Shown: positions 33,446 to 39,071 of the stretch, one piece after another | Position numbering within the stretch: the first letter of the stretch is position 1 | How the letters are laid out: each line of letters starts with the position of its first letter | Notes under the pieces: model-generated | Told to the model about the DNA's origin: nothing | The model's database searches: none | What the model saw: only the letters and a program-made list of their open reading frames with translations | Source of the DNA: Candidatus Fermentithermobacillaceae bacterium | Lineage (GTDB): Bacteria > Bacillota > Sulfobacillia > Fermentithermobacillales > Fermentithermobacillaceae | Assembly: GCA_012512325.1 (NCBI GenBank) | Contig: JAAZEL010000053.1 | Location: 1-49,266 of the forward strand | Direction: 5' to 3' | DNA: 49,266 nucleotides | Program-made: the position numbers and the translations under genes

Positions 33446-34942
33446 TCAGCCAAACCTTTTTTCTCTATATTGCCTGCCTACTAGGAAGGCCTTGGCAGTC
33501 ATAGCGGTTTTGCCTGCCGGTTGTACCTCCAAGACTCCGATTGTACCTTTGCCGCACTTCACTACAGCCATTGTACCATCAATCCCAACTACCGTACCCG
33601 GGACCGTGTCGTCCGGAACTGAAGAGTCCTGGGACGGCAGGAGCTTGGCCCGCCATATCTTCGTACGTTCAGTCCCGAATCGGGTAACTGCGCCCGGTTC
33701 AGGAGACAGCGCCCGTACCAGGTTATGAATATCTTCTGCAGGTGCCTGCCAGTTGATTACCTCTTCGCCCGGCCTCAAACGGGGCGCATAAGTGGCCTCG
33801 TCTTCATCTTGTGGCGTTCTCCTTGCAGAGCCCGTGTACACAGAACACATGGCTTCAACAAGGGCCTGGGCTCCGACAACCCCAAGGCGTCGCTCCAGGT
33901 CTCCGTAAGTTTCGTCAGGATCTATGTCGATCACCTTTTGCAGGCAAATATCTCCTGCATCCATACGTTCACTCATGTATATGATCGACACGCCGCTCTT
34001 CTGTTCCCCAGCCATGATCTGTCTTTGGACGGGATTGCCCCCTCGGTATTTTGGTAGCAGGGACGGATGAACGTTCAAACACGCATACTTGGGAATCTCA
34101 AGCACTTGGGCAGGAATTTTCTGCCCGTAAGCGGCAACGGCTATGAAATCAGCTTCCACCGCCCGGAGCCTCTCAATTGCTTCAGGTGCGCCTATAGCTT
34201 CAGGGGCAAACACCTCTATCCCCAATTCCATGGCCCTCTGCTTCACGGGCGTGGGCGCGATGATCTGCTTCCTGCCGCACGGGCGATCGGGTTGGGTGAC
34301 CACCAGCCTGACATCGGCACCTGCTTCGACCAGGTGTTCCAATGAGGGCAATGCAAACTCGGGACTGCCCATGAACACACATGTCACGCCTGAAAGCCCT
34401 TGGCCCTCTTCGCCATCCTCGTCAACTTCGATGATGGACTTGGCCCTGTCTATGAACAACACCCCGTCCAAGTGATCCAGTTCATGGCATAACGCCCTGG
34501 CCAACAACCCCTCACCTTCGACCCATATTTCACGGCCGTCGCGGTTCAGGGCTTCGACACACACCTTCACAGGACGCTCAACTTCCCCCAGATAACCCGG
34601 AAAACTCAGGCAGCCTTCCCACTTGGTTTCCGTCTCTTCCGATTGGGATACGATTTCAGGGTTAACGAGGAAGTGGGGCCCTTCCCCAACGTCTATTACG
34701 ACCATGCGCTTGGAAATACCAACCTGGGGCGCGGCAAGCCCCACACCGGACACGGCCCTCATGGTTTCCAACATGGCATCAAGCTGCTCGCGAATCCTGT
34801 TATTGACCTTGCGCACGGGCTTGGCCTTCTTTCTCAACACCGGCGCGTCAAATGTATATATCTCAAACCGTGACAAAAAAGCACCACCCTTTGTCAGATC
34901 CACATCCGGGTATACTCTGATTATATCATTCAACCATATCAT
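33446..34942 (-). CDS. Peptide deformylase / methionyl-tRNA formyltransferase fusion (Def-Fmt)
   Basis: Single 498-aa ORF. Def motifs [26 protein letters not shown]; Fmt [49 protein letters not shown]. Junction near residue 180-186 (about 34387-34405). Confidence 0.9.
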
Positions 34943-34959
34943 TTACGGAGCAGATACCG

Positions 34960-37014
34960 TCACCCTATACCGAAGGGCTCTTCAGTGTCCACGGTTATCC
35001 TGACCTGGCTCTGGGACACCCCGTCCATTACCTGGCTGACCACCTGAGACAATTCCTGCTTGCTCCGGGACTTGAGCACCACGATCCACCTGTAGCGACC
35101 GCGCACCCTGGCTTTGGGCGCGGGCCCCGGCCCCAGCACCCGGATGTCCCCTGAACGGGCCTCCACCTCTCGGGCGAATTCCTCAGCAAGCTGCTTCACC
35201 TTGTCCTGGTGTTTCCCGGAAAACTCAAGTTTGAAAAGGGAACCAAAGGGCGGGTAGCTCAGCACCGCCCTGTTCTCAGCCTCAACGGTGTAGAAGGCCT
35301 CAGGGTCTTGCACACCTCTAACGGCATGATGTTGGGGGTTGAGGGTTTGGACCAGGAACTGCTTTTGAGGATTCCCGCCTGAGCACTTGAGCAGGTGCAC
35401 AAGATCCATGAGGAGTTTGAACACCTGTTCCGGAGCGCTGTAATCGGGGAAACTGAGCAGGCTGTCGCAAGAAACCACTCCCAGCCCGGTAAAGGGAGGC
35501 AGCTCGAATCCGAGCACCATCTGAGTGCATAAGAGACATGAAGGTTCCGATGAACCGAATCGGGCAACCGCATCTTCTGGCGCCTTGGTATCTTGATCCA
35601 GCAGGAAAATGGGCACTCCAGGAAAACGCTTCTTAAACTCCGACTCCATTCGGTCTATGCCATATCCCACCTGTCTCCAGGTGAACCCGCGGCACACGGG
35701 ACACTCCAATGGAGGGGGCTCCCTGTAACCGCAAGTATGGCATACCATTAGGGTTTCCCGGGCATGGTATGCAAGGGACACTGAACACCTGGGACACATG
35801 ACCGTACTGCCGCAGTCGCAGCAGACCAGCGCCGAGGACGTACCGCGCCTGTTCAGGAACAACACCGCCCTTTCGCCGTCGTGGAAAATGTCCCTGAGGG
35901 CGAGGTGCAGGTGCTTGCTGATGGTAAGCCCTCGCTTGGTGCCCAACATGCTTACGACCTGATAGGTAACGCTTGCATCCGGACAGGCTGACAAGCCTTC
36001 AGATGTTGGCCTGTCCGCCCACGGCGATGTATCCTCCCATGTTGGTTCAGCCCTACATGGTGATTTGGCCTCGCATCTCGATATGGCCGCAGGTGTCCCA
36101 TGATGGCCTGTATTCTTGAGCTCCCCTTTGCTCATGTAATAGTGGATTCGCACCGAGGGTACGAAAGACCCCAGGAGCACTTGGCAGCCCTGAAGGTTGG
36201 CCCGTATTCTCGCCACGGTTGCCGCGTTGAACCTCGGAGACTCCTCGGCCTTGTACAAATGGGACTCTTCCTCATCCACAACGATTAGCCCCAGATTCCT
36301 GACCGGGCTGAAGACCGCACTGCGGCTGCCCACTGCGATGCCGGACCTACCTTCAAGGAGTCTCAACCAGTTCTCCCGCCTCGTTGAGCCTCTGAGGTCT
36401 GAGTGGATTACCGCGACAGGGCCGAACCGTGACTCTAAGTGCCGGACCGCGCTGCCAAGTTTTCGTATGTCAGGCACGAGCACTATCACACCCAGCCCCG
36501 AGCTTAGAGCGTGTTCCATCCGCTCGAAGTAATATTCCCATCTGGAAGCAGCAGGCCCTTGCACGAACACGCTTCGGGCAAAGGAATCAAGTTCTGTCAG
36601 TTCCGGGGCCTTCCAGGCACCCACCGTACCCTGGCCTGCTGAGATAGGCCGGCCGAGAACCATGCCGGGTTCAAGCCGCTTGCGCCGGACCAGGGGAGGC
36701 CACAAGTAGCGCCAGAAGGATGCAACGGAGGAAACGTAGTATTGCTTGAGCGCCTTTCCCAAGTCCAACAGCTCGCCGGGTGGCAGAAATCTCAAATCGT
36801 AAACCGCAGACACGCTCTTTACGTCGAAATCAGGCTTATCCCTGCCGCGGCCCACAACATACCCCTCTGCCTGCGTCCGGCCGAAAGGTACCTGAACCTT
36901 GGCGCCATAGGGCAAATGGCATGCGCACGGAAGCTCGTAGGTGAATCGACGGTCACCTACGGCGGGGATGTCCACCACTACTTCTACGTAAGGGAACATA
37001 TCCGGGTCAACCAA
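34960..37014 (-). CDS. priA: Primosomal protein N' (PriA), apparently degenerate helicase
   Basis: PriA 3'-binding domain, zinc region CCDCGSTVMCPRCSVSLAYHARETLMVCHTCGYREPPPLECPVC; position beside coaBC and def. Confidence 0.9.
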   Translation of the reverse strand: MVDPDMFPYVEVVVDIPAVGDRRFTYELPCACHLPYGAKVQVPFGRTQAEGYVVGRGRDKPDFDVKSVSAVYDLRFLPPGELLDLGKALKQYYVSSVASFWRYLWPPLVRRKRLEPGMVLGRPISAGQGTVGAWKAPELTELDSFARSVFVQGPAASRWEYYFERMEHALSSGLGVIVLVPDIRKLGSAVRHLESRFGPVAVIHSDLRGSTRRENWLRLLEGRSGIAVGSRSAVFSPVRNLGLIVVDEEESHLYKAEESPRFNAATVARIRANLQGCQVLLGSFVPSVRIHYYMSKGELKNTGHHGTPAAISRCEAKSPCRAEPTWEDTSPWADRPTSEGLSACPDASVTYQVVSMLGTKRGLTISKHLHLALRDIFHDGERAVLFLNRRGTSSALVCCDCGSTVMCPRCSVSLAYHARETLMVCHTCGYREPPPLECPVCRGFTWRQVGYGIDRMESEFKKRFPGVPIFLLDQDTKAPEDAVARFGSSEPSCLLCTQMVLGFELPPFTGLGVVSCDSLLSFPDYSAPEQVFKLLMDLVHLLKCSGGNPQKQFLVQTLNPQHHAVRGVQDPEAFYTVEAENRAVLSYPPFGSLFKLEFSGKHQDKVKQLAEEFAREVEARSGDIRVLGPGPAPKARVRGRYRWIVVLKSRSKQELSQVVSQVMDGVSQSQVRITVDTEEPFGIG

Positions 37015-38266: not shown

Positions 38267-38470
38267 TCAACTTGCGGCATTGTTTTTCCAGCGATACTTG
38301 ACTTTACCGCTGCATATCTCTTCTATGGCAATCGCCACTGGTTTCTCGGCGGCCAGCACATCGCCTTGCTGCTCGACTACAAGCTGTCTCGCCCGCTTGG
38401 CCACTGCCAGCACCAGAGTGTACTTGGAACCGGTCTTCGTTATCACATCTCTCAGAGATGAGTTTGCCAT
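38267..38470 (-). CDS. rpoZ: DNA-directed RNA polymerase subunit omega
   Basis: SKYTLVLAVAKRARQLVVEQQGDVLAAEKPVAIAIEEICSGKVKY. Confidence 0.94.
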   Translation of the reverse strand: MANSSLRDVITKTGSKYTLVLAVAKRARQLVVEQQGDVLAAEKPVAIAIEEICSGKVKYRWKNNAAS

Positions 38471-39071
38471 CCCTTGCCCCCCTCTGAACCTTACCGGCTA
38501 TAAGGCCACGTCGTGCCCTTTCTCCTAAGGATATGGCAACAAGCCTATCTGTGGCTCTTTCAATGTCTTCATTGATAATAACATAATCGAAACCGGCGAG
38601 ATCAGCAATCTCCCTGCGCGCGCTGTCAAGTCGTACACGCTGTTCCATATCATTTTCAGTCCCGCGGGTTCTAATCCGCCGTTGCAGTTCCTCAAAGGAA
38701 GGCGGAAGAATGAAGATGAAGATACCGTCAGGATAGGCTTGCCGTAAGGTTCGGGCGCCCTGCACATCCTTCTCAAGCAAAACTACATGGCCTTGCTCCA
38801 ATGCCTGCTCCAAGTCTTCTCTGGGTGTTCCGTAATAGTTGCCGTATACTTCGGCCCACTCGACGAATTGATCGCGTTGCTTTCTCTCCATGAACTCTTC
38901 AACGGACACGAATATGTAGTCAACTCCGTCAATTTCCCCAGGCCTCTGGGGCCTGGTTGTAACTGAAGGGCAGAACTTGATGTCAGGTTGCTGAGCTAGG
39001 AGAGCCCTCCTCAGGGTGCCTTTCCCGCAACCGGAAGGAGCAGTTATGACAAACAAAAGACCTGGTTTCAT
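38304..39071 (-). CDS. gmk: Guanylate kinase with C-terminal extension overlapping rpoZ
   Basis: MKPGLLFVITAPSGCGKGTL, SVTTRPQRPGEIDGVDYIFVS, FVEWAEVYGNYYGTPRE. Confidence 0.94.
   Translation of the reverse strand: MKPGLLFVITAPSGCGKGTLRRALLAQQPDIKFCPSVTTRPQRPGEIDGVDYIFVSVEEFMERKQRDQFVEWAEVYGNYYGTPREDLEQALEQGHVVLLEKDVQGARTLRQAYPDGIFIFILPPSFEELQRRIRTRGTENDMEQRVRLDSARREIADLAGFDYVIINEDIERATDRLVAISLGERARRGLIAGKVQRGARDGKLISERCDNEDRFQVHSGAGSGQAGETACSRAARRCAGRRETSGDCHRRDMQR

Follow-up and report, generated by a model that had tools for sequence, protein, structure and literature searches.

The analysed window, the whole stretch of 49,266 nucleotides, comes from a draft assembly that is 96.65% complete, and carries on its reverse strand a frame (33446-34942) open over 498 codons, with no stop codon inside, in which two complete enzymes, a peptide deformylase (Def) and a methionyl-tRNA formyltransferase (Fmt), succeed each other without interruption (Table 1). 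The gene neighbourhood comprises gmk, rpoZ, coaBC, priA, def-fmt, a zinc peptidase gene, rsmB, and genes for a PP2C phosphatase and a PASTA kinase. This is a familiar Bacillota gene cluster, so that the locus corresponds to the usual def-fmt locus minus a stop codon, with no added gene. At the gmk/rpoZ end of the cluster (38267-39071, reverse strand), the gmk frame overlaps most of rpoZ, which lies in another frame, over 167 nt (38304-38470), and a long gmk/rpoZ overlap is also present in a relative (L033).

Table 1. Positions of the def-fmt fusion gene, its parts and its upstream neighbour in the window.
Feature	Position	Strand	Basis or remark
PriA with eroded helicase core	34960-37014	-	directly upstream of def-fmt
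Shine-Dalgarno region of the fusion gene (AAAGGGTGGTG)	34880..34895	-	pairing and conservation in members of the order
def-fmt fusion gene	33446..34876	-	Pfam and NCBIfam matches; conserved start codon and Shine-Dalgarno
Peptide deformylase domain (PF01327)	34436..34864	-	Pfam match; catalytic Q, C, H, E, H present
Linker	34388..34435	-	about 15 residues between homology domains, partly acidic
In-frame GTG at the former Fmt Met1 place, proposed internal start	34385..34387	-	not conserved
Methionyl-tRNA formyltransferase (PF00551 and PF02911; TIGR00460)	33473..34387	-	catalytic N, H, D present

A preliminary description of this DNA had reported a def-fmt fusion in a single open reading frame, with all three Def motifs and a complete-looking Fmt, and the profile searches bear this out, since PF01327, PF00551 and PF02911 are matched in one open frame. 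In the numbering of the 498-residue frame, the Pfam Pep_deformylase domain covers residues 27-169 (E 2.4e-51, 173.9 bits against a cut-off of 22.8), Formyl_trans_N residues 207-364 (E 4.4e-40), and Formyl_trans_C, the C-terminal tRNA-binding domain, residues 389-490 (E 2.7e-25). Both parts also exceed the cut-offs of the NCBIfam models, namely, TIGR00079 (pept_deformyl, 151.7 bits versus 103.95) and the fmt equivalog TIGR00460 (279.3 bits versus 201.5), the latter being matched over model positions 3-305 out of 315. All the motifs quoted in the preliminary description were found. The Def part harbours three motifs with the metal ligands and the catalytic Glu (Q; EGC.S; HE..H), while the Fmt part carries the catalytic Asn, His and Asp and the SLLP..RG loop; its aspartate motif reads MDAGD, in which we take the first D of D.G to be the catalytic residue. 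The columns of the Def Q, C, H, E and H, and of the Fmt N, H and D, are invariant in 72 out of 72 aligned fused homologues. An AlphaFold model of the fusion, obtained from 4 sequences with a pLDDT of 39.5, was set aside.

With regard to the translation start, the frame had initially been drawn from 34942, but the ATG found there lies too far upstream, and the TTG at 34876, located behind AAAGGGTGGTG, is the likelier start in view of the conserved codon and Shine-Dalgarno (SD) region, giving a product of 476 residues and about 52 kDa. Homology to other genera begins at residues 19-27 of the 498-residue frame. Pairing with the anti-SD sequence at this TTG amounts to -9.8 kcal/mol; in nearly all of the 17 members of the order examined, the aligned start codon is TTG or GTG with a strong SD upstream, and pairing before it ranges from about -6.9 to -11.8 kcal/mol.

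In relatives outside the clade, a single stop codon often separates def and fmt, and one base error could hide such a stop. The preliminary description had raised the case of a stop codon or frameshift concealed at the junction, the fusion then being an assembly or sequencing artefact made of two ordinary genes. The fused relatives rule this out, and we consider its probability negligible: each of the 16 further genomes of the order carries it too (17/17 with the source genome), G006 being assembled as a single contig, and one-contig genomes show the fusion elsewhere in the class-level group, in other families (G038 and G142). When contigs were scanned using the whole protein, the only matches were to near relatives, to one unfused pair and, in two cases, to def alone.

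The class-level group comprises 154 genomes, in 126 of which the def/fmt locus was read. Seventy-three of these loci are fused (25 families), 40 are adjacent but separate (19 families), and 13 have no def beside fmt, as judged on the stretch read, some of them being at contig ends. None of the families read mixes fused with adjacent-separate loci. In a phylum sample of 399 genomes, the stop-free matches spanning both domains all come from this class. The statement that def and fmt are adjacent but separate elsewhere in Bacillota also stands, all 20 loci read outside the class having def and fmt in one frame with a stop codon between them; because pairs sharing a frame are favoured by the E-value filter, 20/20 should not be taken as a census of gene arrangements. 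Same-frame pairs separated by a single stop codon are found within the class as well (G018, G054, G056-G059 and G103), which makes the step to fusion a small one, and in the unfused relatives the two genes lie a few bases apart. A near-fusion is seen in family f34 (loci L073 and L080-L082; genomes G056-G059), where a single TAG parts same-frame def and fmt, and the Def tails are long and acidic. Other peculiarities concern individual loci. In L027, L051, L055 and L058 (family f24) and in L052 (f30), about 27-35 extra residues interrupt the Fmt match near its C-terminal end, so that the domain is hit in pieces. The Def part of the fusion at L031 (G030) is spread over two neighbouring frames, owing to a frameshift or an assembly error. 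An apparent priA-def-fmt triple fusion in G073 (an open frame of 1707 aa) was rejected, PriA being encoded in another frame and ending just upstream.

The linker of the fusion is the counterpart of the Def C-terminal tail in unfused relatives. Across the class, linkers share little conserved sequence and are variable, often acidic or rich in Pro/Gly; the gap between domain hits is 6-10 residues in 40 fusions (15 families), and varies up to 70 residues in the others. A variable linker of such composition might be cleaved after translation to release ordinary Def and Fmt, but we hold this to be highly improbable, because the 6-10 residues available in 40 of the 73 fusions leave little room for a conserved site, and no conserved cleavage motif was seen in the linkers.

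Another route to free Fmt would be an internal start, a single gene then giving two products, the fusion and Fmt alone. The GTG at 34387, to which the preliminary description had attributed this role, does exist with AAGGG 9 nt upstream, and it lies exactly at the place of the Fmt Met1; further, some in-frame ATG, GTG or TTG occurs near the junction in 59 of the 73 fused genes. Its function as a working start did not hold up, however, since the codon is unconserved and the pairing weak. The five members of the genus carry GTG, GTG, CTC, CTT and CTG at this place, i.e., GTG in just two of them, and ATG, GTG or TTG occupies the former Fmt Met1 place in 9 of the 73 fused genes, having been lost in 64. 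Anti-SD pairing before the GTG is -4.8 kcal/mol versus -9.8 at the def TTG, and the median best pairing is -4.4 in fused versus -7.65 in separate genes. In addition, chance Val codons occur at the Fmt Met1 place in these genomes. Codon conservation and anti-SD pairing thus rule out the internal GTG start as a conserved feature, and the production of free Fmt from this codon or from another internal start appears very unlikely. We read the GTG as a remnant or a chance Val codon, with no working start.

The domain matches, the catalytic residues, the conservation throughout the order, the gene arrangement in unfused relatives and the precedent of the Exiguobacterium fusion described below argue strongly for a bifunctional enzyme, composed of an N-terminal peptide deformylase, a short linker and a complete methionyl-tRNA formyltransferase, which very probably arose when def lost its stop codon. 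In such a scenario, a tandem def-fmt pair would come to yield one polypeptide, the Fmt start codon decaying after the fusion. The two domains would form separate active sites acting on different substrates, the Fmt domain formylating Met-tRNAi with 10-formyl-THF before initiation, and the Def domain taking the formyl group off the nascent chain. Def and Fmt would be made in a 1:1 ratio, and the equal stoichiometry put forward in the preliminary description follows from the single chain. We infer both activities, the mechanism of origin and equal dosage as the only consequence from the sequence.

With regard to the number of origins, a tree was built from the Def and Fmt domains joined together, with linkers left out. 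It requires 12 changes between the fused and separate states, at least three of which are forced by well-supported branches, but a constraint that groups every fused row in a single clade is not rejected by the AU test (p 0.485). The 17 fused sequences of the source's order form one well-supported clade in this tree. The fusion is the sole PF01327 match in the source genome. Among the 73 fused genomes, 15 have two PF01327 matches, but in G030 both matches come from one gene broken by a frameshift; this leaves 59 genomes, mostly drafts, without any other detected, or back-up, deformylase.

The retention of the fusion across 25 families, usually as the sole deformylase detected (59/73), may point to selection for coupling, for instance by keeping both enzymes near the ribosome or by tying formylation to deformylation capacity. 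We regard this as unlikely, given that a neutral, seldom reversed fusion predicts retention equally well, that the domain gap can be as short as 6 or as long as 70 residues and its sequence is poorly conserved across the class, and that Def and Fmt, according to established biochemistry, act at different steps and exchange no intermediates. The corresponding broader view, namely, an old, widespread and selected fusion making the lineage dependent on one polypeptide for a formylation–deformylation cycle that would be coupled, by placement or dosage, beyond what separate enzymes offer, is doubtful to the same degree. With a second deformylase usually absent, the lineage would rely on one chain for this drug-targeted cycle, and the fusion provides natural material for asking whether tethering matters in N-terminal formylation.

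Fusion of def and fmt has been described in the four Exiguobacterium reference genomes, which have a second deformylase gene as well; an E. coli mutant deleted for def-fmt is able to grow again when it receives the fused gene (PMC12690207, Mol Biol Evol 2025, msaf311). Within the literature that we searched, no def-fmt fusion is reported beyond this one. Both systems join def and fmt in a single gene, but the activities were shown by complementation in Exiguobacterium and are read from sequence here. Moreover, Exiguobacterium belongs to the Bacillales and always has a second deformylase, whereas the present fusion occurs in a different, uncultured Bacillota lineage and is the sole deformylase detected. 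In view of the Exiguobacterium report, the present fusion represents a new, broader occurrence of a known arrangement, and the surprise is limited because both the fusion type and its function were already published. What is new is the breadth, the occurrence in a Bacillota lineage that is largely uncultured, and the fact that a second deformylase is usually missing, a one-genus fusion now being extended to dozens of families. Compared with the tandem def-fmt operon (priA-def-fmt-rsmB cluster of Bacillota), the enzymes, their order and their neighbours are the same, but the stop codon that would part def from fmt is absent, and fmt lacks a conserved start codon of its own. ArnA, 10-formyl-THF dehydrogenase and other fused formyltransferases likewise have an Fmt-like domain joined to another enzyme; their partner and substrate differ, and the Fmt part of the present protein is above the fmt equivalog cut-off but falls far short of that for ArnA (165 versus 777).

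The neighbouring PriA may hold more interest than the def-fmt fusion. In the source protein, Walker A GVTGSGKTE is replaced by QG-PAASRW, DEEH by DEEE and SAT by SFV, and GRAGRG is lost, while the 3'BD DNA-binding, zinc ribbon and C-terminal domains remain. The helicase motifs (Walker A GSGKT, DEEH, SAT and GRAGR) are also lost in 13 out of 13 readable relatives of the order, with one PriA copy per genome. As a precedent, PriA from Deinococcus radiodurans is a demonstrated pseudohelicase, with a milder Walker A change (Lys to Arg in GKT) compared with the broader motif loss seen here (PMC4504706). The PriA of the present order looks like an order-wide pseudohelicase, more eroded than that of Deinococcus. 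The motifs are intact in G018, G073 and G142, and are eroded also in G151, which belongs to another family.
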